From: an uncultured Clostridia bacterium
GTDB lineage: Bacteria; Bacillota; Clostridia; Oscillospirales; Acutalibacteraceae
NCBI GenBank assembly: GCA_947585615.1
Contig: CANPXD010000005.1
Location: 1-45,934 of the forward strand
DNA: 45,934 nt
Direction: 5' to 3'
Position numbers and translations under genes: made by a program. Below the pieces are notes generated by a model. It was not told the origin of the DNA. It saw only the letters and a list, made by a program, of their open reading frames with translations, and ran no database searches. Of the stretch, positions 2,650 through 45,820 are shown piece by piece; positions within the stretch are counted from its first letter, which is position 1, and every line of letters starts with the position of its first letter.

Positions 2650-5478
2650 TTATCTCTTTTCAAGCATAGGTTTAAGATATTTTCCTGTATACGATTTTTT
2701 GCATTTAACAAGTTCCTCGGGCGTTCCCGCTGCAACAATCTTTCCGCCGCCATTTCCGCCCTCCGGTCCGAGGTCAATAATATAATCCGCGGTTTTTATA
2801 ACATCAAGGTTATGTTCTATCACAAGCACGGTATTTCCTGAATCGACAAGCTCGTTTAATACGTTGATCAGCCTGTGCACGTCTGCTGTATGAAGACCGG
2901 TTGTCGGCTCGTCAAGAATATAAATTGTTTTTCCCGTTGAGCGCTTCATAAGCTCTGTTGCGAGCTTGACACGCTGCGCTTCCCCGCCCGAAAGCGTTGT
3001 AGCAGGCTGACCGATTTTTATATATCCGAGACCGACATCCGACAAAGTTTTCAGCTTGCGGTATATTTTCGGCTGCTGCCTGAAAAATTCGAGTCCCTCG
3101 TCGACCGTCATTTCAAGCACCTGATAAATATTTTTGCCCTTGAATTTAACCTCAAGTGTTTCGCGGTTATATCTCTGACCTCCGCAGACATCGCAAGGAA
3201 CATAAATATCGGCAAGAAAGTGCATTTCAATCTTCACAATACCGTCGCCCTGGCACGCTTCACACCTGCCGCCCTTTACGTTGAAGGAAAAGCGGTTTGA
3301 TTTGTATCCGCGCATTTTTGCATCAGGCGTTTCAGCAAACAGGTCTCTTATATCATTGAACACACCTGTGTATGTTGCGGGGTTTGAGCGCGGCGTTCTG
3401 CCAATAGGAGACTGGTCAATATTTATAACCTTGTCAAGGAATTCCGTTCCCTTCATTTTATCAAAACGCCCCGGACGCTTTTTGGCGTTATTAAGAACGT
3501 TTGCAAGGTGCTTATAAATTATCTCGTTTACAAGGCTTGATTTACCCGACCCCGAAACACCTGTTACGGCAACGAACTCACCGAGAGGAATTTCGACATT
3601 TATTTTTTTTAGATTATTTTCAGCCGCACCCATTACAACAAGTTTTCTTCCGTTGCCGCTCCTTCTTGCCAACGGAACAGGTATATTTCTTTTACCGCTT
3701 AAATACTGCCCTGTAACCGAATTCTCGCAAGCAATTATATCCTCAACGGTTCCTGCCGCAATAAGTTCACCTCCGTGGACACCTGCACCGGGACCTATAT
3801 CAACAACATAATCTGCCGCACGCATAGTATCCTCGTCATGTTCAACAACTATAAGGGTATTTCCGAGGTCGCGCAGATGGCGCAATGTACCGAGCAGTTT
3901 TTCATTATCCCTTTGATGAAGTCCTATAGACGGCTCGTCAAGAATATATAATACGCCCATAAGAGACGAGCCTATCTGTGTAGCAAGCCTGATTCTCTGA
4001 GCCTCTCCGCCGGAAAGGGTGGCCGCCTCCCTTGAAAGCGAAAGATAATCGAGACCAACGGAATTAAGGAAATTCAGTCTTTCCTTGATTTCACGGATGA
4101 TTAACCGACCGATCATCAGCTCCTTTTCTGTCAGCTTCAAATTTTCAATAAATTCAAGTTCTTCGGATATTGACATCTTACAGAACTGATGAATATTCTT
4201 TCCTCCCACCGTAACAGAAAGACTTATGGGAGAAAGTCTTGCCCCGTTACAATCCGGACATACAGCGGACACCATAACCGATTCAATATCCGACCTCGCC
4301 CATTCGGAGCCGGTCTCGTCATATCTGCGTTTGAGATTTGTAACAACACCCTCAAAATCATTTACATATGTTCCGCTGCCATAGGAGGTTACTCTCTTCA
4401 TTTTTATTTTTTTCCCTTTAGTGCCGTGGAGAATAACATCAACAGCCTCTTTTGAAAGCATTTCTACAGGCATATCGAGCGAAAAATTATATTCCTTTGC
4501 AAGAGCCTCAAAATACATTCTCGCAATAGAAGAGCCATCAGCAACATTCCAGCCGCTTGCTTTAATTGCCCCTTGATTTATAGATAGCTTTCTGTTCGGA
4601 ATAATCAAATCCTCGTCTATCTCCATAAATGTTCCGAGACCTGAGCAGCGTTTGCACGCGCCGAACGGATTATTGAATGAAAACATACGCGGACTCATTT
4701 CCTCAATTGAAACACCGTGCTCAGGGCAGGCATATTCAAGGGAAAAAAGCTCTTCCCCACCCCCCACGATGTCGCAGAGAACAACACCCTTTGAAAGTCT
4801 TGTTGCGGTTTCAATGCTGTCCGTAAGACGGCTTTTTATGCTTTGTGAAACAACAAGCCTGTCCACAACAACCTCAATGCTGTGTTTCTTATTCTTATCC
4901 ATAGTGATTTGCTCGGACAAATCATATATAATCCCGTCAACACGGACACGGACAAATCCGCTCTTGCGCGCGTCGTCAAGTTCCTTGACATATTCGCCTT
5001 TTCTGCCGCGCACAATCGGAGCCATAATCTGAATTCTTGTTTTTTCGGGATAAGAGAGAATTTTGTCAACGATCTGGTCGATGGTCTGCTGTGAAATTTC
5101 CCTGCCGCAGACGGGGCAGTGAGGTATTCCTATTCTCGCATACAGAAGTCGCAGATAGTCATAAATCTCCGTAACCGTTCCTACAGTAGAGCGCGGATTC
5201 TTTGATGTTGTCTTCTGGTCTATTGAAATTGCCGGACTGAGTCCATCAATATAATCAACGTCCGGCTTTTCCATTTGACCAAGGAACTGCCGCGCATAAG
5301 AGGATAAACTTTCAACATATCTTCTCTGCCCCTCAGCATAAATGGTATCAAAGGCAAGACTTGATTTTCCGGAGCCGGACAACCCCGTAAATACAACAAG
5401 GCTGTCTCTCGGAATTTCAACGTCAATATTTTTCAGGTTGTGCTCCCTCGCGCCCTTAACAACTATATTCTTATTCAT
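2650..5478 (-). CDS. uvrA: Excinuclease ABC subunit A
   Basis: 942 aa; two ABC cassettes ([24 protein letters not shown]), Zn-binding CxxC motifs, LSGGEAQR twice. Confidence 0.98.
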
Positions 5479-34016: not shown

Positions 34017-35216
34017 TTAAAGTTCATGCTTTTCAAGCAGCTTTTGCGCCTCTCTGAAGCTAATGTTATTTTCATCGGCAACAGCGGCAATCTCATCGTA
34101 TTCCATTTTTTCCTTTACCGCTCCATAGCCGCTTGAGATTTTCTTGCTTATTTCACCTGACGATGTTTTTATCTTTACACTTTTTCTATCCATAACATAT
34201 CTGTCAAAGTGACACTTTCTTACGCCGATTGTTGTTGTATGCTTAAATAAAAGCTCCGCTATATTGTCAGCTTCATTTTCATGGCACAAAACAGATATTT
34301 TAGTTCCCTGACGAGACTTTTTCATATAAACAGCAGTAGTATAAACCTCAAGCGCTCCTCCTGAATACAGACGTCTGCAAGCGTATGATATTTCCTCTGC
34401 CGTCATATCGTCAACGTTGCAGGAAAGCTCTGCTATACATTCCTTTGCACCTTCGGCAGCTTCACCCAACAAAGCGCGCAGGCAGTTTGCAGTGTCAAAC
34501 TCCTTTGTACCAAAACCGTAACCGATTTTTTTGATTTTCATTGCAGGCAATTCGTTAAATTCAGTCACAAAATACTTCAGGAGTGCCGCCCCTGTCGGCG
34601 TACAGAGCTCACTTTTTATGTGACCGCCATAAATAGGTATATTCCTCAAAATCAATGCCGTAGCCGGTGCAGGGACAGGTAAAATCCCATGCGCACATTT
34701 AACTGTACCGCTGCCCGTATTAACAGGCGAGCAAACAATTTTATCAGGACTAAGCTCGTTCAACAGCAGACAGACAGCTGTAATATCGGCAACGGCGTCC
34801 ATTGCCCCAACCTCGTGAAAATGGATTTCTCCGACGGGTACTCCGTGTACCTCGCTTTCAGCCTCGGCTATAATTCTATATATATTTTTGATGTCGTTTT
34901 TGATTTTTTGAGAAACATCAATTCCATCAATAATTTTTTCAATATCCCCGAGATTTCTGCCATGGTGGTGATGGTGATGCAGGTTTTCGCCCGAGTAAAT
35001 TTCATCGTTCTCCTCTTTGCCTTTGACTTTCAAAGTCATATGAATTCCCCTGATGCCGCATCTTAACGATTCCTCATATTCGAAAAAAACGCCGGGAATA
35101 TTAAGACTGTTCAGCTTTTTAATATACTTATCTCTATTATCCATCAGGTCAAGCAACGCCGCCGAAAGCATATCTCCGGCAGCGCCCATTGCGCATTCCA
35201 AATAAAGGACCTTCAT
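34017..35216 (-). CDS. larC: Nickel-pincer cofactor biosynthesis protein LarC
   Basis: LYLECAMGAAGDMLSAALLDL; His-rich HHHHHHGR linker; single uninterrupted ORF. Confidence 0.93.
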   Translation of the reverse strand: MKVLYLECAMGAAGDMLSAALLDLMDNRDKYIKKLNSLNIPGVFFEYEESLRCGIRGIHMTLKVKGKEENDEIYSGENLHHHHHHGRNLGDIEKIIDGIDVSQKIKNDIKNIYRIIAEAESEVHGVPVGEIHFHEVGAMDAVADITAVCLLLNELSPDKIVCSPVNTGSGTVKCAHGILPVPAPATALILRNIPIYGGHIKSELCTPTGAALLKYFVTEFNELPAMKIKKIGYGFGTKEFDTANCLRALLGEAAEGAKECIAELSCNVDDMTAEEISYACRRLYSGGALEVYTTAVYMKKSRQGTKISVLCHENEADNIAELLFKHTTTIGVRKCHFDRYVMDRKSVKIKTSSGEISKKISSGYGAVKEKMEYDEIAAVADENNISFREAQKLLEKHEL

Positions 35217-35971
35217 TTTTTTACCTCCATATGATTAATCATACTTGCAAGATAACCTGCTCCGAAACCGTTGTCAATATTCACCGTACAAACCCCTGAT
35301 GCACAAGAGTTGAGCATGGACAAGAGTGCCGCAAGACCGTCAAAAGACGCCCCGTAGCCAACACTTGTCGGCACGGCGATTACAGGACAGTCGGCAAGAC
35401 CTCCTATAACACTCGCAAGAGCGCCTTCCATCCCTGCAACGACAATCACAACGCTAGCATTCATTATTTCTTTAATATAAGGTAAAAGTCTGTGCAGTCC
35501 CGATACGCCAACGTCGTAAATTCTCTCAATATCATTTCCGAGAGCCTCCGCTGTAACAGCCGCCTCTTCGGCAACAGGAATATCACTTGTTCCGGCTGTT
35601 GCAATAACGATTTTACCGATTCCGTAAGGCTTCGGAATCTCGCCAATAATGCCGATTTTTGCCGCATCATAGTATGTCAAACTAAGCTTTTCGTTAATTT
35701 CATCGGCGGTATCCTTATCGATTCGCGTTATGATAATCGTTTTTTGCCCGTTATTTAACATTTTGCGGGAAATACCGATTATCTGTGAAACGGTTTTGCC
35801 ACCGCCGTAAATCACTTCGGCAATGCCTTGCCTGAGTTCACGGTGAAGATCCACTTTTGCGTAGCTAAGATCCTCAAAAGGAGCAGTTTTCAACTTTAAA
35901 ACCGCGTCATCAACCGAAATTTTGCCTGATTTTACATCCTCAAGTATCTTTTTTACTTCTTCGCCGCGCAT
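35213..35971 (-). CDS. larB: Nickel-pincer cofactor biosynthesis protein LarB
   Basis: PurE/AIR-carboxylase-like (GTSDIPVAEEAAVTAEALG, VVVAGMEGALASVIGGL, PTSVGYGASFDGLAALLSMLNSCA); start at MRGEEVKK. Confidence 0.93.
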   Translation of the reverse strand: MRGEEVKKILEDVKSGKISVDDAVLKLKTAPFEDLSYAKVDLHRELRQGIAEVIYGGGKTVSQIIGISRKMLNNGQKTIIITRIDKDTADEINEKLSLTYYDAAKIGIIGEIPKPYGIGKIVIATAGTSDIPVAEEAAVTAEALGNDIERIYDVGVSGLHRLLPYIKEIMNASVVIVVAGMEGALASVIGGLADCPVIAVPTSVGYGASFDGLAALLSMLNSCASGVCTVNIDNGFGAGYLASMINHMEVKK

Positions 35972-36067
35972 AAGATTCCTCCAAGTATAATCAAACTGCA
36001 CTTTAAATATACCATTATCGTAAAATAAATACAAGAAAACATTTTTTAATATATTTTAATTTTTGTA

Positions 36068-36121: not shown

Positions 36122-36197
36122 AGGGGTATAGCTCAGTTGGTAGAGCAGCGGTCTCCAAAACCGCGTGCCGAGGGTTCAAGTCCTTCTGCCCCTGCCA
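36122..36197 (+). tRNA. tRNA-Trp (CCA anticodon)
   Basis: Acceptor AGGGGTA/TGCCCCT, anticodon loop tCCAaa, encoded CCA. Confidence 0.95.
36153..36197 (+). repeat. attL core (3' part of tRNA-Trp)
   Basis: ctccaaaaccgcgtgccgagggttcaagtccttctgcccctgcca, identical to 45776-45820. Confidence 0.95.
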
Positions 36198-36264
36198 CCG
36201 AAAAGTCTTGAATTTCGCTTAATAATGCGGATTTTAAGACTTTTTATTTTTTTCGTTTTTGTTC

Positions 36265-36313
36265 CTGCAAACAATTACATATCAATTTGCAAACAATTTG
36301 CAAACAGCAAACG
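36265..36313 (+). repeat. Left-end GCAAACA array
   Basis: GCAAACA at 36267, 36289, 36300; GCAAACG at 36307. Confidence 0.8.
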
Positions 36314-36322
36314 AAAATCCGG

Positions 36323-37480
36323 CTATATTACAATCATTTTATTAAGACTATCTGCGATTTGAATTTTTGATGTTTTATCACTATGAGCATAAAACTTTAG
36401 TGTCGTTGATGAGCTACTGTGTCCTAACCATTCTGCTACTTGAACAACAGAAAAACCGTTGTTTAAAAGATTACTTGCAACGCTGTGTCTCAAATCGTGC
36501 AATCTTATGTGTGGTAGGGTACTTTTAATGATAATTTTATGAAACGTTCTTGATAAATAATTTGGCGCTATAACATTTCCGTCTTCCCAAGTACACACGA
36601 AATTATTATCTACATAATTATTACCAATTAGCTCTTTTCGCTTTCGTTGAAGCTCTTTGTGCTTTTTAAGCATTTGATAAACATCTTCTGTCAGTGGTAA
36701 TGTTCTGTAACTGCTTTCTGTTTTAGGAGTATCAATATAATTCGTATTTTCTCCTTTATGCTGTTGGAGTGTCTGACTTATAGTGATTGTTCTATTAACA
36801 AAATCTATACTATTCCAGCTAAGGCCTAATACTTCGCTTCTTCTGAAACCGTATATTGCGCAGAGTGTTACAGGTATTTCCACACTTGAACCTTTGAATA
36901 GCAGCAACAAATCTTGAAGCTGTTTCGGATTGAGAAACTCACTTTTATATGTTTCTGTTTTTGGAGTTTTCGCATAAGACGCAGGATTATAATGTATAAT
37001 ATCCTTTCGCACAGCGTCAGATAACGCTTTACTGATATTTTGATGATGATGTTTTATTGTTGTGTGTGATAATGCTTCATCACTTCTTAACTTGCTGTGT
37101 GGCTTTAATTTGAATTTGTAATAATCTTCAAGGTGATAAGGCTTTAGCTCTTGTATTAAAATATCTTTACTTTCAAAATAAGGTATGATGTGATTTTCCA
37201 TATTGCCTTTGTAAGAACGATATGTATTAGGTTTAACTTCTAATTCAATTTCCTTAATCCAATTTTTAAAATACTCTGCAACTGTTAAATCACAGTATTT
37301 TACATTTTTCTTATCCCATTCCAAAAGTAAATCATTTAAAATCTTTTCGGCTTTTTTCTTATTACCTCTAACGGCTAATTTGGTATTATACCATTTCTGC
37401 CGTCTTTCGCCATATTCATTATAATAACTAATTATAGCGTGATATGTTCCGTTTCTTTCAAACAAACTTCCAGTTGCCAT
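36323..37480 (-). CDS. int: Site-specific tyrosine integrase
   Basis: Catalytic motifs R (YGFRRSEVLGL), HDLRHSVAS, LGHSSSSTTLKFYAH; adjacent to attL. Confidence 0.96.
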   Translation of the reverse strand: MATGSLFERNGTYHAIISYYNEYGERRQKWYNTKLAVRGNKKKAEKILNDLLLEWDKKNVKYCDLTVAEYFKNWIKEIELEVKPNTYRSYKGNMENHIIPYFESKDILIQELKPYHLEDYYKFKLKPHSKLRSDEALSHTTIKHHHQNISKALSDAVRKDIIHYNPASYAKTPKTETYKSEFLNPKQLQDLLLLFKGSSVEIPVTLCAIYGFRRSEVLGLSWNSIDFVNRTITISQTLQQHKGENTNYIDTPKTESSYRTLPLTEDVYQMLKKHKELQRKRKELIGNNYVDNNFVCTWEDGNVIAPNYLSRTFHKIIIKSTLPHIRLHDLRHSVASNLLNNGFSVVQVAEWLGHSSSSTTLKFYAHSDKTSKIQIADSLNKMIVI

Positions 37481-37573
37481 TATTCGCTCCTTTCTTTGAA
37501 ACGGACAAATATATTCATTTGTATAATAGCATTAATATTTGCCCGCTTCAAGTATTTTAAATTTAATTTTAGA

Positions 37574-37756
37574 TTAGCTTATATCAAGAAAGTTAATAAC
37601 GCTTTTCTTTGGTATAATGTATCTGTTTCCGATTCTTAATGTCTTTATCCTATTTTCTTTTAAAAGTTTATATGCTGCTGACCTGCCAATCCTTAAAATT
37701 TTTTGCAAATCATCAACAGATAAAATATCAGGATAATTATTTAACAAATTTTGCAT
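37574..37756 (-). CDS. xis: Excisionase-like / HTH_17 DNA-binding protein
   Basis: 60 aa; LSVDDLQKILRIGRSAAYKLLKENRIKTLRIGNRYIIPKKSVINFL. Confidence 0.85.
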   Translation of the reverse strand: MQNLLNNYPDILSVDDLQKILRIGRSAAYKLLKENRIKTLRIGNRYIIPKKSVINFLDIS

Positions 37757-37799
37757 ATTTAATTCCTTTCAGAAATTATTTTTAAATTTAGGTATAATT

Positions 37800-38948
37800 T
37801 TAGTTAAACATCGAATTAAATAAATCGACGTTGTCAATCGTTGAGATATTAGGACGATTAGCGTCTGAAAAAATATTATCTTTGTCTTCATTAGGCACTG
37901 CGTTATATTTAAAGTTTTTACTGTCATATTCCATAACATGAATGTGGTCATAGTCCATTTTAATAACAAGTGATAATCTTCGTGATAGCTGTTTAAAACT
38001 ATCTGTTATCGACGTATAATTACCAAAATAGCAATTATAAAATGCGTCTGGACTATAAGGCGTTGTTATTATTATTAAATCGCAGGTTAATTCTTTATCG
38101 CTATATCTCGACGGAAGCATTTTATTGATTTCAAACGGGTCAAGTATTCTTAGTAAATCAGAAAATTCAATAATCCTCGGTCTAAGCTCGTCAATAATTA
38201 AGGTATGTTCGCCTAAATATTTTTGAAAATAATCCTTTGATGAACCTGTTAAATAATAGGGCTGGTTTCTTTTTTCGGCATAATATTTTGCAAAGGTCGT
38301 CTTACCTGTACCTGCTTCCCCGTATATCCAAATTACTGTTACTCGTTTGCCCTGTGCAATCATTTCTTTTTTAAAATCTTTAGATTGTTTTTTTAATAGC
38401 TTAGAATACACATTTTCTATTTGAGTTTTATATCTTCCATATTGAGCGCCTGTTATTTGTTTCTCAACTTCTTCTTTAGTAATCAACCCTGAATATAACA
38501 AATCAAGTAAGTTCTTTATTTTCATAGAATTTTTGCTTGAAACCTCTGACAAGATGTTTTCAAGAAGCTCAATATAATCAAAATTTGCGATTACCCGAGC
38601 GGGATCGTACTGATACTTTGTTGTTGCGGTATTTGTTCTATGTACCAGATAAGCATAGCCGTTATTGCTGTTTCCTTTCCACGCTTCAATATATTGCGGC
38701 TTATCGTTAAGAAGGCTTGCAACTTTATTAAGAGAGCGTGCATTTTGAAAACTCATCATAACGTGCACATGAGCTTCAATAAGATTACCTTTTTCGTCAG
38801 TGTCTTTGTCGTGTAGAATCAGGGCATACTTTTTAGGCTTAATTTTATTTTCAATTATATCAACAAGCTTGTCTATCGAACCGGCAGGAAGATGTTTTAA
38901 CTGCTGTTCATACATCATATTTTTGTAACTGTTATTTTTACTGCTCAA
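37800..38948 (-). CDS. rep: Rep/relaxase-like initiator: HUH endonuclease (Rep_2-like) fused to P-loop helicase domain
   Basis: ALILHDKD, EAHVHVMM (HUH), YLVHRTNTATTKYQY, Walker A GEAGTGKTT, Walker B LIIDE; start placed at TTG 38948 behind aaaggag; listed ORF extends to 39050 through non-coding repeats. Confidence 0.85.
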   Translation of the reverse strand: MSSKNNSYKNMMYEQQLKHLPAGSIDKLVDIIENKIKPKKYALILHDKDTDEKGNLIEAHVHVMMSFQNARSLNKVASLLNDKPQYIEAWKGNSNNGYAYLVHRTNTATTKYQYDPARVIANFDYIELLENILSEVSSKNSMKIKNLLDLLYSGLITKEEVEKQITGAQYGRYKTQIENVYSKLLKKQSKDFKKEMIAQGKRVTVIWIYGEAGTGKTTFAKYYAEKRNQPYYLTGSSKDYFQKYLGEHTLIIDELRPRIIEFSDLLRILDPFEINKMLPSRYSDKELTCDLIIITTPYSPDAFYNCYFGNYTSITDSFKQLSRRLSLVIKMDYDHIHVMEYDSKNFKYNAVPNEDKDNIFSDANRPNISTIDNVDLFNSMFN

Positions 38949-38998
38949 ATCGGTGTCGTCTCCTTTCTTATTAAATTTGGTTTTTTCATATTTTTTTA

Positions 38999-39120
38999 AC
39001 ACCGTAACACCATTACGGGTGTGTGTGCATAACAAGCCCTGCACACACAAAATATGTATTATTACTAATGTTTGACACCTAACACCGCTGTTGCTTTTGT
39101 TTCACAACGCACAGCGGTGT
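38999..39120. other. Candidate replication/transfer origin (three inverted repeats)
   Basis: acaccgtaa/ttacgggtgt (38999-39022), tgtgtgtgca/tgcacacaca (39020-39049), acaccgctgt/acagcggtgt (39082-39120). Confidence 0.5.
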
Positions 39121-39127
39121 CCGATTT

Positions 39128-40528
39128 TTAGCTGTGATACTTGTTAAGCAATCTGCCAAGCTCAGCGTATACCTTAAAAGTCATACGCGGAAAATGCACA
39201 AATGATACTCTGTCGTGTAATCCGTCTGTGCTGGAAAACCAAGCGTCGCCTGCATTATAAACTCTGCCGTTATTAAAATCTTTTAGCTTGTCACTATCCC
39301 AGATTAGTCGTCCTTCATCAAGTGTAGGCTTAAAAAGAATTTTTGTTGTCATTGCAGAACGTAACATTGCAGGTAGACCACCCTCAGATACACTGGCTTC
39401 TGCTATGCTGATTATTGCAAAGCACCCTGCACTTGCGCCCATTGTTACAATACGCTTTAGCAAGCTGTCAAATGTTGCAAGGCAGTAAGTTGGGCAGTTT
39501 TTACTCGGTTTTGATGGAAACATAGTTCTACAAGAAACATATTCATCTATAAATATAAATGAAGCGTGCATTCCTGCATCCCACCATTTCACCGCATCGC
39601 CGGTTTTTTCTGACAATGTATTTAGTGTTTGTTGACGCTTAACAATGATATCAGAAAACATTTGCATAGCTTTTAATATTCCTTTTGCTTCGCCGTCTTT
39701 GTCAAGAGTAACGACCGTTGGCAAACGGCTTAATTCCGCTTGCTTGGGGTCAATTATAATAATTTTACTGTCAAAATTATCTTTTTCATAGAGAAGGGAC
39801 TGAATTAACAGGCTTATTATTCCTGTTGTCTTGCCGCTTCTTGTTTTACCGGCGCATAGAATACTGCCTGATGTTCGTAAATCAATATATGTATTCTTTT
39901 GAACAGCAAGCGTTGCCGGATTAGTCTGCTTCATTTTTTTTACTTCATTAAAAGTCAAACTAAGGTCTTGAGTTACATCTTCAATGCGAAATTTAACATT
40001 ATTAAAACTTATATCGGTATCGGTTTGAGTTACCGCATAATTAGCAAATCTTTTTTTGTTTAAAGCTGATGAAATACTGCTTGTTATATTTTGCATATTC
40101 TCAACCGTACAAGAAACTACTTTTACTGTAAGCGTGAACACGCCAAGCTCGCTTACTTCACATTTTATCTTAGGTAAGCGTTCTCCGTCTTTTAGGTTTA
40201 GCGGATTGCCGTATTCGTAGCTGCATAACACCTTACGTACCATATATTTGATACGAGTTTTATCAGGCATTATAAAGTGGATTGTAATGGCTGTTACAAT
40301 AAGTATAGCACCTATAATAAGTGAAGCACGACTTATTGTTGTAAGTGCGCATACAAGCCATTCTATAACAACTTGAAACAAATCAATATTAAAAGATATT
40401 GTTTTTAATACAAGTCTTAATATTAACGTAAAAAGGGCAATTAAAAGGCTACACATACCTAATAACAAAAGTTTCGTATTAGGTAATAAAAAGGCAACAA
40501 TTGACCTTTTTTTATTAAAATAATTCAT
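39128..40528 (-). CDS. FtsK/SpoIIIE-type ATPase (TcpA-like coupling protein)
   Basis: Two-region N-terminal TM; Walker A GKTRSGKTTG; IIIIDPKQAE; FIFIDEYVS. Confidence 0.88.
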   Translation of the reverse strand: MNYFNKKRSIVAFLLPNTKLLLLGMCSLLIALFTLILRLVLKTISFNIDLFQVVIEWLVCALTTISRASLIIGAILIVTAITIHFIMPDKTRIKYMVRKVLCSYEYGNPLNLKDGERLPKIKCEVSELGVFTLTVKVVSCTVENMQNITSSISSALNKKRFANYAVTQTDTDISFNNVKFRIEDVTQDLSLTFNEVKKMKQTNPATLAVQKNTYIDLRTSGSILCAGKTRSGKTTGIISLLIQSLLYEKDNFDSKIIIIDPKQAELSRLPTVVTLDKDGEAKGILKAMQMFSDIIVKRQQTLNTLSEKTGDAVKWWDAGMHASFIFIDEYVSCRTMFPSKPSKNCPTYCLATFDSLLKRIVTMGASAGCFAIISIAEASVSEGGLPAMLRSAMTTKILFKPTLDEGRLIWDSDKLKDFNNGRVYNAGDAWFSSTDGLHDRVSFVHFPRMTFKVYAELGRLLNKYHS

Positions 40529-40537
40529 GATTTTTTG

Positions 40538-40891
40538 TTATGGATTCACAATCTGAATATCTTCACATTTTATGCTTAGACATTCGTTGTATTGCCCGTA
40601 AACTTTTGCCTTAACTTTCAAAGGCTTAATAAGAGAGTTCACCGGTATATTCATCCGTTTACCTACTTTAAAGGTAACGGATGAATACCGATTTGTGGTA
40701 TTCAAGATGTCACCATTATTATCAATATATTTTGTTTTATCATTGATAATAACAGCTTCAACTTTTGTACCGATAACCATTTTTGTATCATGATCTACCC
40801 ATTCTCTGCAGTCGGTGACAGAAAACTGTTTGTCAGCAGAAAATGATTCCCAATCAAAATGTAAAAATTGGGTTAATCTTTTTAATGCCAT
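40538..40891 (-). CDS. Conserved-looking element protein of unknown function
   Basis: 117 aa ORF in run with ftsK-like gene; 1-bp overlap with upstream ORF. Confidence 0.7.
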   Translation of the reverse strand: MALKRLTQFLHFDWESFSADKQFSVTDCREWVDHDTKMVIGTKVEAVIINDKTKYIDNNGDILNTTNRYSSVTFKVGKRMNIPVNSLIKPLKVKAKVYGQYNECLSIKCEDIQIVNP

Positions 40892-41112
40892 TATTTTTCA
40901 CCTCCTTTCTCGTCAAGAGGGATTGATAAATCTAATCCCTCATAAACGATACTTCTTATAATTGACATAATTACATTTATACCGTAATTATGTTCATATG
41001 GTTCTAAACAATCAATGTTTTCAACATCGATTGTAATTGAACCTTTCACATAAGAATCTATAAATGCTTTTATTTTTATTAAAGCATTTTTTTCCTTATC
41101 TATTGATGCCAT
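40891..41112 (-). CDS. Small element protein of unknown function
   Basis: 73 aa; directly upstream of 40538-40891. Confidence 0.6.
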   Translation of the reverse strand: MASIDKEKNALIKIKAFIDSYVKGSITIDVENIDCLEPYEHNYGINVIMSIIRSIVYEGLDLSIPLDEKGGEK

Positions 41113-41487
41113 GTATAAACATCCTTTCTATTAATTTTATGTTAATTAACGGGGTGAAACCGCCCTCAAAAATATAACTGTACCTAAGTAGGATGTAATT
41201 TCAGAAAATACTCTGATTTAAAGCAACAACTTATAAAATTCATTTTTTTCACCTCCTTCCGGGTTATCTTAATACAATCTTTTATGTATGTAGAAATTGC
41301 TTTTTTCCTGAACCTGTAGTGCCACTTAAAAAATATGGAATTTTGCTTTAACAAGTAGTTCAAGTTTATTTGCAATTCCCCTTGGCATAGAGCCAAGAGC
41401 CATACTCAATAAGTTTTTTAATTTGAATTTAACACCTCCAACTTAATAATAGAATTTTGTAATGTTTTAAAAACATAAAAAGAAAAA

Positions 41488-41578
41488 GGATTATAACATA
41501 TTTATGCATACAACCAATCTGCGCAAGCAATTGCTAAAGGCGCATTTCGGCCGTTTTAACATAAACGTGTTATAATCC
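41488..41578. repeat. Long inverted repeat in 5' leader of element operon
   Basis: ggattataacatatttatg (41488-41506) vs cataaacgtgttataatcc (41560-41578), 17/19 complementary. Confidence 0.85.
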
Positions 41579-41586
41579 ATAATCAA

Positions 41587-41615
41587 ATGATACTATTACA
41601 TAGGTGACTTGTCAA
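41587..41615 (-). promoter_or_regulatory. Sigma-A promoter for element rep/ftsK operon
   Basis: Minus strand TTGACA-17-TATCAT. Confidence 0.75.
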
Positions 41616-41859
41616 TAGGAAAAAGAAAATTTCTGTTAATATTAACAAAAAAATTACTTGAAGCGCAATAAAAATTGGCAATAATTAACAATGAATAAAT
41701 ATAACAAATATTATAATAAATTGTATAAATATACAATACTTATATATCTTTGTAATACTATACTAATCTATGAAAAAAAATCTTTGATTCTGAAAGCCGT
41801 TCTGTTCGAAATAGTCGACTTTTTCTGTTTGAGGATTGTCTGTAAGTCATTCCCGCATT

Positions 41860-42108
41860 TTAACGTTCTTCCAATTTGTATGATTTCAGTTCAATGAGCA
41901 TACCTGAACCATTATGATTCATTTCAACGGTTTTGTGAAATACATTTTCGGCGTCAATAAAGAATAAGCCTATATATGGGCTTTCACTGTCGCCGAGTTC
42001 GCCGGTTCTTTTAATCGTTGTGACAGATACTTTGTATATGAGATTTGTCACAATGTTGATTTCCGTATCGGCGTTATTTAGCTTTTTTGATAATTGTTCT
42101 GTAGACAT
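41860..42108 (-). CDS. Hypothetical protein
   Basis: 82 aa ORF within element; start codon at 42108. Confidence 0.5.
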   Translation of the reverse strand: MSTEQLSKKLNNADTEINIVTNLIYKVSVTTIKRTGELGDSESPYIGLFFIDAENVFHKTVEMNHNGSGMLIELKSYKLEER

Positions 42109-42172
42109 TTTTATACTCCGTGGTTTTTATTCCCCATTTTGATTTTTTTTTGTCGGTTTTTGATAAACTTTA

Positions 42173-42204
42173 TGGCTGGACACAGTTTTATCTATGTCCA
42201 GCCA
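42173..42204. terminator. Hairpin, probable terminator
   Basis: tggctggaca-N12-tgtccagcca; T-run weak. Confidence 0.45.
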
Positions 42205-42218
42205 CGGTTTAGCGGATA

Positions 42219-42953
42219 TTATTTCTTTACGGCTCCGCAACCCGTGCATTCGTAATGGTCAATGACCTTTTTCGTACCGACTTGTACTTTTTCGTAGCCG
42301 ATAAGTTCTTCTACGAGATGACCTGTACCATAATGGTCGTGGACTTTGAGATGGTCGCCGGATACAGCTACTTCACTTTGCCCTGTTTTACGACCGATTT
42401 CAGTGAAGTCTATTCCGCATACAGAACAGTAGTAATGTGTTACGCATTTGTATCGAGGCTGTTCCTCGTAGACGGGTTCCTCACGGTATACGGCTTTGTA
42501 AGTATGCTGATGTACCGTGGTTGCAGGTTTTGCTTTTTGTGTCGTTGGAGCCTTTGTAGTCGAAGTCGACTTTTTAGTCGCTGTAGGCTCTGTTGTGCGT
42601 TTCTGTGTTGTTGCAGAAACAGTGGATTTTTTAGTCGTCGTTTCAGCGGTATGTTTCGTTGTAACAGACGAAGCGGATTTGGTTGTAACGGGTTTCGCCG
42701 GTTCTACGCCTTTTTTGTCAGTCGGAGTTTCGGCATTTTTTTGTTCGGTAACAGTTTGTCCGTCGGAAACGGATGTTGTTTCTGTTTCTGCTGTGTCGCC
42801 TTTTGCGGTAGTGCCGTCGGTCTGTGTGATGTCCTGTGTGATTTCGGTATCATTTTGCGTTACCGTTGATTCCACGGGCGCACGAGCCGTACAAGCCGTG
42901 AGAAAGCAGACCGCGAGAACTACGAGCAGAATGCTTATGAGTTTCTTTTTCAT
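42219..42953 (-). CDS. Thr-rich putative lipoprotein with two C-terminal CxxC knuckles
   Basis: Lipobox LTAC; long T/K/A-rich linker; HQHTY...YYCSVCG...YECTGCGAVKK. Confidence 0.8.
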   Translation of the reverse strand: MKKKLISILLVVLAVCFLTACTARAPVESTVTQNDTEITQDITQTDGTTAKGDTAETETTSVSDGQTVTEQKNAETPTDKKGVEPAKPVTTKSASSVTTKHTAETTTKKSTVSATTQKRTTEPTATKKSTSTTKAPTTQKAKPATTVHQHTYKAVYREEPVYEEQPRYKCVTHYYCSVCGIDFTEIGRKTGQSEVAVSGDHLKVHDHYGTGHLVEELIGYEKVQVGTKKVIDHYECTGCGAVKK

Positions 42954-43079
42954 AGTAATGTACTCTCCTTATTATAAAATTTTTGAAAATATTATTTTCA
43001 CTTATAATCCCGGCACGGTTTACCGTGCTGTTTTCTCAGATGTGATATATTAAGAATTTCGGGAAAACAAGGCAACTCG

Positions 43080-43235
43080 TTACGAGTCGCCCTTATTATC
43101 TACCGTGCAAGTTATACTTGTTTGATTATGTGTTTCGGTACTGTCGTCGGCAAAAATGTGATAGGCGAGGATTCCTGTTCCTATCGTGAAACCTATGATA
43201 ATAGCTGTGACGCTTAATAACATTGTTAAAAGCAT
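43080..43235 (-). CDS. Small membrane protein
   Basis: 51 aa: MLLTMLLSVTAIIIGFTIGTGILAYHIFADDSTETHNQTSITCTVDNKGDS; one TM; weak RBS; not in supplied track. Confidence 0.4.
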   Translation of the reverse strand: MLLTMLLSVTAIIIGFTIGTGILAYHIFADDSTETHNQTSITCTVDNKGDS

Positions 43236-43252
43236 CACATTGATATGTTTTT

Positions 43253-44317
43253 TTAGCCTTTTATATAAGAATTGATGTCAAAAATCACTTTTTTATTTTT
43301 TTCTAAAACATCATCAACATTATCAACTGAAACATTTTTAGTGCCAATGGGATCAATGGTAAATTGTTCAAGATTTTTTCCTCTTGTGAGAAGATAATAT
43401 AAATTATATGTATTACCGTTTTCAATATCAACTCTATATCCAAAATAATATGAATCATATATTTGAAACCCTGTTGTTCCAAACTCAATTAAAGGTCCAA
43501 ACAATTCGATCTTGTTTAATTTAAGACTATATGTATCCTGTATATATGCAAAAGAATTATCAATAACTGGTGCATATTGCTCTACTAATGATTCAGAAAT
43601 AGCATTGTTACCTGTAGAATCAGTATTAATAACAATATTATACTGCAATGTTGGATTCGATGTATAATCTTCAATCGCTTTTATAGCCATTTTTCCTGCT
43701 TCAGAAGATTTAAAACATTCAATAAGGCCATTGTAAATATTATTGGCGGCTTTTTTATAATCGCCTGTTGTAAAACATTCAATATAATTATTCTTAACTA
43801 CATCTCTTAACTTATTTCCAAGTTCACCGTTCCAATCTGATAATTCAGGAACAAAATCATAGAAATTTTCATCAGATATATCAGAATATCTATGCCCGTA
43901 AATATCTATGCTGTTTTCATACTCGATTTTTAACTTTTCTTCCCATTCTTTCTCAGAATATATTGTAACATTTTCTATCAATTCGTTATAAGCCTTTTCA
44001 TTAGATTCTTTAACAAGTTCTTTAAAACTATTCTCTGCCATTTCCTCTATTTCAGAATCTTCCATATTTTCTAATTCACCTAAAGTCATTTCAGGATAGT
44101 ATATCATATTTGTACCATCTTCTTTGAAGATGAGAACAGATTCAACTTTAGCTTCTTTTGCAGGAATGGCGCTATCCTCGCTATTTACTAAAAGAAAAAT
44201 TCTGTGTTTATCTTCTAAATATCCGCTAAGCGTTGTATATTTAGATGATTTGCCACAGCCGACAAGCATTACTGCTATGAGAGCCACGCTTAAAATGACT
44301 GATAATGATTTTTTCAT
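43253..44317 (-). CDS. Putative lipoprotein of unknown function
   Basis: Start at MKKSLSVILSVALIAVMLVGCGKSS; lipobox LVGC. Confidence 0.8.
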   Translation of the reverse strand: MKKSLSVILSVALIAVMLVGCGKSSKYTTLSGYLEDKHRIFLLVNSEDSAIPAKEAKVESVLIFKEDGTNMIYYPEMTLGELENMEDSEIEEMAENSFKELVKESNEKAYNELIENVTIYSEKEWEEKLKIEYENSIDIYGHRYSDISDENFYDFVPELSDWNGELGNKLRDVVKNNYIECFTTGDYKKAANNIYNGLIECFKSSEAGKMAIKAIEDYTSNPTLQYNIVINTDSTGNNAISESLVEQYAPVIDNSFAYIQDTYSLKLNKIELFGPLIEFGTTGFQIYDSYYFGYRVDIENGNTYNLYYLLTRGKNLEQFTIDPIGTKNVSVDNVDDVLEKNKKVIFDINSYIKG

Positions 44318-44391
44318 AGTTTTTAATATCCTCCTAAAAATATAAATTTGCAGCCAAAACCACACATTAAACATTGCACCGGCAATAATAA

Positions 44392-44446
44392 ATACTCAGT
44401 ATATTGAGCATATTCAAATTATACTCAATATCTTTAGCATAGTCAA
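44392..44446. promoter_or_regulatory. Divergent promoter/operator region with 21-bp direct repeats
   Basis: atactcagtatattgagcata (44392-44412) and atactcaatatctttagcata (44421-44441); minus-strand promoter TTGACT-17-TATAAT (44446-44418). Confidence 0.65.
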
Positions 44447-44497
44447 GAGATTAGTTATGTTATTTTATTCATATATTATATTAAGAGATGATAGCAT

Positions 44498-44707
44498 ATG
44501 ATTTCTTACGCTCCGTTTTATAAAACCTTAAATAAAAAAGGCATAACTGAATACGCCCTGATTTTTAAGCACGGAATTCCCGCAAATACGCTCCATAGAA
44601 TGAAGCACGGCGAAGCAATTACCACAAAAACGCTTAATGAATTATGCTTCATTCTTGATTGCAGAGTTGAAGATATTTTAATTTATATAAAGAATGATAA
44701 AGAATAA
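44498..44707 (+). CDS. XRE/Cro-CI-like HTH regulator
   Basis: 69 aa; YALIFKHGIPANTLHRMKHGEAITTKTLNELCFILDCRVEDILIYI. Confidence 0.88.
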   Translation: MISYAPFYKTLNKKGITEYALIFKHGIPANTLHRMKHGEAITTKTLNELCFILDCRVEDILIYIKNDKE

Positions 44708-44708
44708 A

Positions 44709-44738
44709 ATCCTGCTTGTTAAAGGCAGGATTTTTTAT
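44709..44738 (+). terminator. Rho-independent terminator
   Basis: atcctgc-ttgttaaag-gcaggatttttt. Confidence 0.8.
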
Positions 44739-44881
44739 TTAATATTGATTTTTAAAACAATAACTGTTATTATATCAACAGAGCTTTTGCTCTCTTGGAG
44801 TTATCACTGATAACGGTAGGCGGTTAGTCCTCTTAATAAAAAGAGGGCAATGCCCTCTAATTGATTTTAGGGGGTGATGCT

Positions 44882-44962
44882 ATGGAATATTTAGCTTTTA
44901 TAGTAATTATTCTTATCGTAGCCACGGGCTACATAATAAGCATAAAAAACGACCGCCCATAA
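44882..44962 (+). CDS. Candidate type I toxin peptide (26 aa)
   Basis: MEYLAFIVIILIVATGYIISIKNDRP; strong RBS ttagggggtgatgct; promoter TTGATT-17-TATTAT at 44745-44773. Confidence 0.65.
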   Translation: MEYLAFIVIILIVATGYIISIKNDRP

Positions 44963-45026
44963 GCTCCACACTTAGGCAGTCGTTTGTCTAACTTGGGCTA
45001 ACCGTCTATCGGATAACTCCTTGTTC
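44943..45026 (-). ncRNA. Candidate antisense antitoxin RNA
   Basis: Minus strand promoter TTGACA-17-TATAAT (45061-45033); terminator aacgactgcctaag-N-cttatgggcggtcgttttttat. Confidence 0.65.
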
Positions 45027-45309
45027 ATTTTTATTATAATAAGCTGATTTCAATTTGTCAACAGTCAAGTTTTATTCCGCTTGATTTATATGGGATATTT
45101 TTTAATCGGTTTTATATCAACTCTCACTTATGCTTTTCATTATACCAACAGCAATAATTTGTCAAATCTCGACTGAGATTACGACAAAGAAAAAACTTTT
45201 TTCTTCATTATATGTTAAAAAGCTTTTTTCTTTGCTTGACAAATTATCTTATGTTGGTGACTTCTCCTTGCACTCGTAAGAGTAGTAATTATTTAAAGGA
45301 GTTGTCAAA

Positions 45310-45528
45310 ATGAAACTGACATACGAAATTAACAAAATTGATGAGTTCAAGGCTTGGAGCGGGGCAGTGGAAACCGTCAAAGCGATTATTGAAAATGATA
45401 AGCAAGATGAATTTATGTTCATTCTTGAAGACATTTTCCCTAATGGTTGTACTGAAACAGAGCTTAACGATTTCCTTTGGTTTGATGATGATTTCATCTT
45501 TTCCTCACTTGATATAAAACAAGATTAA
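45310..45528 (+). CDS. Small acidic hypothetical protein
   Basis: 72 aa; RBS aaaggagttgtcaaaatg. Confidence 0.65.
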   Translation: MKLTYEINKIDEFKAWSGAVETVKAIIENDKQDEFMFILEDIFPNGCTETELNDFLWFDDDFIFSSLDIKQD

Positions 45529-45542
45529 GCACATAAAAAATA

Positions 45543-45577
45543 TCCCTGCTTTGTTAAATCAAGGCAGGGATAAAATT
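45543..45577 (+). terminator. Rho-independent terminator
   Basis: tccctgct-N-aggcaggga-taaaatttt. Confidence 0.65.
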
Positions 45578-45597
45578 TTGAATATATTGTCCGTTTA

Positions 45598-45651
45598 CTG
45601 CAAACAAAATTAAGATTTTTTGCAAACAAATTGCAAACATTTTTGCAAAAA
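45598..45651 (+). repeat. Right-end GCAAACA array
   Basis: GCAAACA at 45600, 45622, 45633; degenerate GCAAAAA at 45645. Confidence 0.8.
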
Positions 45652-45775
45652 AAATGTTAAGCTATTGTTATATCGTTGTGATTTTATACAATGTAATTTT
45701 AAAAAAATTGTGCAAGTTAAACTAAAAATCACTAAAAAACACCAGAAAACATTACTTGTAAAGCTATTTGAAACG

Positions 45776-45820
45776 CTCCAAAACCGCGTGCCGAGGGTTC
45801 AAGTCCTTCTGCCCCTGCCA
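45776..45820 (+). repeat. attR core
   Basis: Identical 45 bp to 36153-36197. Confidence 0.95.

Follow-up and report, generated by a model that had tools for sequence, protein, structure and literature searches.

The window, that is the whole stretch of 45,934 nucleotides analysed here, contains an integrated element of 9.6 kb (36153-45820), whose borders (36153-36197 and 45776-45820) are direct repeats of 45 bp from the 3' end of tRNA-Trp. On the minus strand of this element lie the genes of a tyrosine integrase (36323-37480) and of an excisionase-like helix-turn-helix protein of 60 amino acids (approximately 37578-37758, with a TIGR01764 match just below the cut-off), then rep (37800-38948) and the gene of an FtsK/SpoIIIE-like ATPase (39128-40528), whose stop codon at 39128 agrees with the initial annotation. 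The latter product has N-terminal hydrophobic segments and an FtsK_SpoIIIE domain (E 1e-9, with the general FtsK model and not a TcpA-specific one), and is a candidate TcpA-like coupling protein; it is 68% identical to the product of the gene adjoining the origin of the related locus L002 and only distantly similar (25%) to its counterpart on a Staphylococcus epidermidis plasmid. The other genes of the element are short or lipoprotein-like, among them two lipoprotein-like cargo genes without family matches (42219-42953 and 43253-44374); L002 also has a lipoprotein-like gene, at 1345-2232. The small gene at 40538-40891 contains two strong perfect inverted repeats (40648-40687 and 40716-40752, with 12- and 11-bp arms). 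No domains of an own T4SS were present in the scanned proteins of the element, a scan which covered all but the very short ORFs. Beside the insertion site, larB-like (PF00731) and larC-like (PF01969) genes, probably host genes for the nickel-pincer cofactor, occupy 34017-36034. Further genomes of the genus (L050, L051, L053, L055) have second copies of the tRNA-Trp 3' end with no Rep of the window-Rep family nearby, and tRNA-Trp seems to be an insertion hot spot of other elements as well.

Rep carries a PF01719 HUH endonuclease domain (E 4e-14) followed by a PF00910 SF3-type helicase domain (E 9e-9). Its aligned HUH motif reads HVH and its motif III reads YLVH, the Y and H being invariant in the A2 alignment. 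Profile and fold searches with Rep led to the vientovirus Rep and to the ATPase of PCV2 Rep, and those with the N-terminal part to plasmid RepB; the AlphaFold model built from a three-sequence input was middling (pLDDT 66), and the single-sequence model was useless. Judged by these domains and motifs, the protein is a bacterial pCRESS Rep, which is also a known IME relaxase type. The start of rep had been placed at TTG 38948, and this placement is supported by the ribosome site AAGAAAGGAG that precedes it and by a TTG at the matching place in L052. In L002 the corresponding position (6002) reads ATA, and the start there may be this ATA or the ATG ATG 30 bases downstream. It had also been suggested that the supplied ORF is not translated upstream of TTG 38948. 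In-frame stops, TGA in L002 and TAA in L003, stand within about a dozen codons upstream of the conserved MMYEQ start region, thus the segment equivalent to 38949-39050 is not translated in these relatives; the coding reading of 38949-39050 was ruled out by these stops in two close relatives.

The gap between the ftsK-like gene and rep was described in the initial annotation as holding three inverted repeats, two of them with perfect 10-bp arms, and a pentamer, ACACC/GGTGT, recurring about seven times in an iteron-like manner. The two perfect repeats are there (39020-39029/39040-39049 and 39082-39091/39111-39120), while the third, at about 38999-39022, is imperfect, its inverted form is absent from the relatives, and it consists of two tandem iterons with their surroundings. 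When 38949-39127 (179 nt) was shuffled with its dinucleotides preserved, one 10-bp hairpin occurred in 36 of 5000 shuffles and two in none (0/5000). The rep strand of the gap has a fold z of -5.1. It should be emphasized that the whole 46-kb window holds 19 perfect 10-bp hairpins, so such hairpins are not rare in it, they are weak evidence by themselves, and conservation has to decide. The pentamer was indeed present in seven copies (38952, 38999, 39007, 39018, 39075, 39082 and 39116) against a shuffle mean of 0.8, a count matched in 0/5000 shuffles, and four of these copies belong to phased RGTGYYA iterons. An Rfam scan gave nothing relevant.

Conservation singled out the middle repeat. On the minus strand, which is the rep strand, 39020-39049 forms the hairpin TGTGTGTGCA-GGGCTTGTTA-TGCACACACA with 10-bp arms, and its loop GGGCTTGTTA (39030-39039) has the positions GGGCT.G.T invariant in nine aligned relatives, where GGGCT-x-G-T was found without exception; L058 has GAG instead of GGG. 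The loci L002 and L003 (61% and 51% identity), recovered by protein search, have a hairpin at the matching place with the common loop core and different stems, and the loop occurs with other stems directly upstream of rep in L052, L058 and L004 as well. L052 and L058 come from the window's own genus, and L052 had been chosen for its second copy of the tRNA-Trp repeat, its rep and hairpin being found afterwards. The same loop is present on plasmids of Staphylococcus epidermidis/Lactiplantibacillus, S. warneri, S. haemolyticus, Lactococcus and phytoplasmas, where the annotated initiator is a Rep of the window type; in plasmids the hairpin is also found at 200-280 nt from rep. Upstream of its GGGCTTG hairpin, the L027 plasmid has a further hairpin at about 3764-3790, CGAGGTTG-TGCTACGTCG-CAACCTCG, whose loop resembles the pMV158-like CTACG nick site.

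Furthermore, the stems covary. Among 10 sequences each of the 8 inner pairs has 2-4 pair types, all of them Watson-Crick, with 3-8 double-sided changes per inner pair relative to the window; pairs were counted outward from the loop, since MAFFT did not register the unequal loops. Of the 12 upstream regions, 11 have a GGGCTNG hairpin on the rep strand and none has one on the opposite strand, the permuted-motif control giving a mean of 0.2/12. The hairpins were located by a motif-plus-arm search, which makes the stem match partly a matter of construction, a point answered by the permuted-motif and the rest-of-locus controls. Five permuted motifs equalled the observed count, and these are presumably the unpermuted arrangement; the five hairpins counted outside the upstream regions all come from circular plasmids whose sequence was read beyond its end, where the same hairpin was presumably counted again. 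Within the window 39020-39049 is the sole hairpin of the GGGCTNG type. Variant loops occur at L010/L024 and L041, L031 reads GGGCTGTC, and the related loci L008, L016 and L040 have no such hairpin. Rep and profile scans of viral contigs gave no relatives, and class- and phylum-wide genome searches with strict cut-offs gave no match beyond the window's own genome. An open-literature search for GGGCTTGT together with rolling-circle and plasmid returned no match, subscription papers being outside its scope and an earlier description being possible.

The iterons are arranged on both sides of this loop on the minus strand: GGTGTTA at 38997-39003 (offset +36 from the loop) and 39005-39011 (+28), GGTGTCA at 39073-39079 (-40), and GGTGTTA at 39080-39086 (-47), the last reaching into the 3' arm of the upstream hairpin. 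RGTGYYA, which averages about 0.1 per 180 nt over the window, stands at -47, -40, +31 and +37 in L002 and at -48, -41, +28 and +35 in L052, with incomplete sets in L003 (-40, +28) and L058 (-40); the more distant plasmids showed no such iterons. The alignment across homologous elements, which had been proposed as a check, showed a conserved loop in covarying stems, on the same strand and in the same position in all close relatives.

The second conserved hairpin (39082-39120, minus strand) consists of an outer and a small inner stem with an A-rich bulge on the 3' side. In L002, L003, L052 and L058 a corresponding hairpin with a different stem sequence comes after the preceding gene. The window hairpin has no T-run behind it on the rep strand. 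Single-strand origins were predicted upstream of the nick site in related plasmids (PMC3541243), and by the same location 39082-39120 may be a single-strand origin; a transcription element is the other candidate, and the preference for a single-strand origin is a first guess of low confidence.

Loop type follows the type of Rep. The tree of 31 Reps splits with 100/100 support into one side with motif III YLxH or YMxH, whose hairpins have GGGCTNG-T or related loops (GGGCTACGTC in Dulem virus 75, AGCTTCGTC in L010/L024), and another with motif III YxxK, where TAGTATTAC stands in the loop at ten loci. At these loci (L006, L007, L012, L013, L014, L017, L018, L019, L021 and L023) the TAGTATTAC hairpin was observed on the sense strand, a short way upstream of rep. 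TAGTATTAC belongs to the class of nonanucleotides known from eukaryotic CRESS viruses, and PMC8780604 describes what the nonanucleotide loop does in viruses. Since at least one of these loci, L023, lies in a single-contig bacterial genome of 3.1 Mb, TAGTATTAC is bacterial there. The association of loop type with Rep type was 14:10 without exception among typed loci (Fisher p = 5e-7, and 8e-6 with near-copies merged, shared descent still inflating the test). The L013 loop, GGGCTAGTATTACCC, contains both patterns. Dulem virus 75 (L041) is an inovirus with a PF01719-like Rep and the hairpin CGGCTCCCAT-CGGGCTACGTC-ATGGGAGCCG before rep, its loop being intermediate between GGGCTTGT and the pMV158 CTACG loops. 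It is conceivable, at slightly under even odds in our judgement, that the nick signature switched together with motif III (YLxH with GGGCTTG^T, YxxK with TAGTATT^AC) and that the eukaryotic nonanucleotide was inherited from bacterial integrated elements, loci like L013 being intermediate.

As regards the position of the cut, the G-T step is invariant in the YLxH set and the bases after it vary, and origins of the pMV158 type are cut at TACTACG/A (PMC3541243). Based on these two features and on the intermediate-looking inoviral loop GGGCTACGTC, the cut is probably GGGCTTG^TTA, between G39033 and T39032 of the minus strand, and this is favoured over a CRESS-like cut after TT (T39031).

Taken together, the gap region is very probably (we would put it at about 0.85) the Rep-dependent origin of an integrated, excisable plasmid-like element of the pCRESS type, or equivalently of an IME with a PF01719-PF00910 relaxase. 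The earlier proposal that the repeat cluster is an origin with its nick site is largely upheld, a nick-site hairpin beside the HUH Rep gene being backed by conservation, iterons and the link between loop and Rep; the predicted nick hairpin is the middle repeat only, and it would act on the rep strand. The integrase and the excisionase would release a circle, and Rep would bind the RGTGYYA iterons on both sides, as their fixed offsets suggest, and extrude the hairpin. The HUH active site would then cleave the loop on the rep strand, most likely at GGGCTTG^TTA, Rep remaining on the 5' end, and the free 3' end would prime rolling-circle synthesis through rep with unwinding by Rep's own helicase domain. 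The displaced strand might be recircularised, which is replication, or passed by the FtsK/TcpA-like protein to the conjugation machine of a helper, which is transfer.

The balance between these two outcomes can be drawn differently, with the nick hairpin being mainly an oriT, Rep the relaxase for mobilisation and autonomous replication minor. An FtsK/TcpA-like gene adjoins rep both in the element and in the staphylococcal plasmids, and PMC5357655 proposes PF01719-PF00910 proteins that occur with TcpA as IME relaxases, tcpA lying upstream of the relaxase gene as in the window. Nevertheless, the small plasmids of phytoplasmas and Lactococcus have the same hairpin and Rep with no FtsK gene listed and need the hairpin for replication, and the helicase domain lies within Rep itself; a mainly oriT role is therefore rather unlikely. 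Where small plasmids share this Rep and hairpin, we infer that the site must be a replication origin, since Rep is the annotated initiator there, and the FtsK-like neighbour of rep argues for a transfer role as well. Some other HUH initiators use one site for both replication and transfer, and the present site is likewise taken to serve both.

Control of gene expression could also explain repeats located between two genes. An inverted iteron copy, GACACC, stands between the ribosome site and the start codon in the window, L002 and L052, and ACACC/GGTGT repeats and palindromes might be sites of an element-encoded or host repressor controlling rep; nevertheless the repeats keep phase with the nick hairpin on either side of it, as Rep iterons do, which makes this improbable. 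The inverted copy could let Rep repress itself. A role of the inverted repeats in transcription, as terminators or attenuators between ftsK and rep, as the place of 39082-39120 directly 3' of ftsK might suggest, is very improbable: it is the loop and not the stem of the nick hairpin that is conserved, in a strand-specific manner and, in plasmids, also at 200-280 nt from rep. The terminator reading itself was rejected, as neither hairpin has a T-run after it on the rep strand and the terminator scan lists none. The longest ORF spans the gap region, and palindromes arising by chance inside an N-terminal coding part of rep were considered as well; against the in-frame stops just upstream of the conserved start, the stem covariation and the shuffles, the probability of this is negligible.

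With the origin reading, a widespread and little-tested group of bacterial integrated elements, related to ancestors of the CRESS-DNA viruses, gains a specific origin and nick site that can be put to the test. MOB-suite typed most plasmids with this Rep as non-mobilizable, and the GGGCTNG-T loop with RGTGYYA iterons gives a sequence tag for locating the oriT/dso on such elements. Additionally, the link between nick-site sequence and motif III of Rep allows the plasmid-to-virus origin story to be tested on the DNA itself.

Compared with known systems, the MobT oriT of Tn916-ICESt3 (CT'AA in a GC-rich hairpin loop; PMC9371924) has a nick site in a hairpin loop on an integrated Firmicutes element too, whereas the MobT relaxase belongs to PF02486 and the window loop is without CTAA. 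The pMV158-type dso (RepB, TACTACG/A) shares the PF01719 HUH domain, the hairpin nick site and YLxH; the window loop, however, is GGGCTTGTTA as against TACTACGA, it is free of TACTAC(C)G/A, and the window Rep has a helicase domain. The CRESS-DNA virus origin (TANTATT/AC) resembles the present one in its stem-loop with a short conserved loop, its flanking iterons and its HUH-SF3 Rep, but the window loop is not the nonanucleotide TANTATTAC, the window has no TAGTATTAC hairpin and motif III is YLxH, while the sister YxxK bacterial clade has TAGTATTAC. Streptococcal IMEs with the Rel_PF01719-PF00910 relaxase, some of them with a TcpA coupling protein (Coluzzi et al. 2017, PMC5357655; PMC5704250), share with the window element the integrase, the relaxase domain pair and, upstream of the relaxase gene, a gene for an FtsK-like protein, which in the window is a candidate coupling protein; they differ in being streptococcal, and the accessible text of PMC5357655 gives no oriT for this relaxase type. 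The bacterial pCRESS plasmids of the YLxH supergroup (pCRESS4-8; Kazlauskas et al. 2019, PMC6668415), in the main text of which no origin hairpin or nick motif was found, have an HUH and SF3 Rep with YLxH, form integrated elements with att repeats and include the phytoplasma plasmid pCPa, and the window element likewise combines PF01719 with its HUH motif, YLxH, a C-terminal SF3 helicase and integration with direct repeats.
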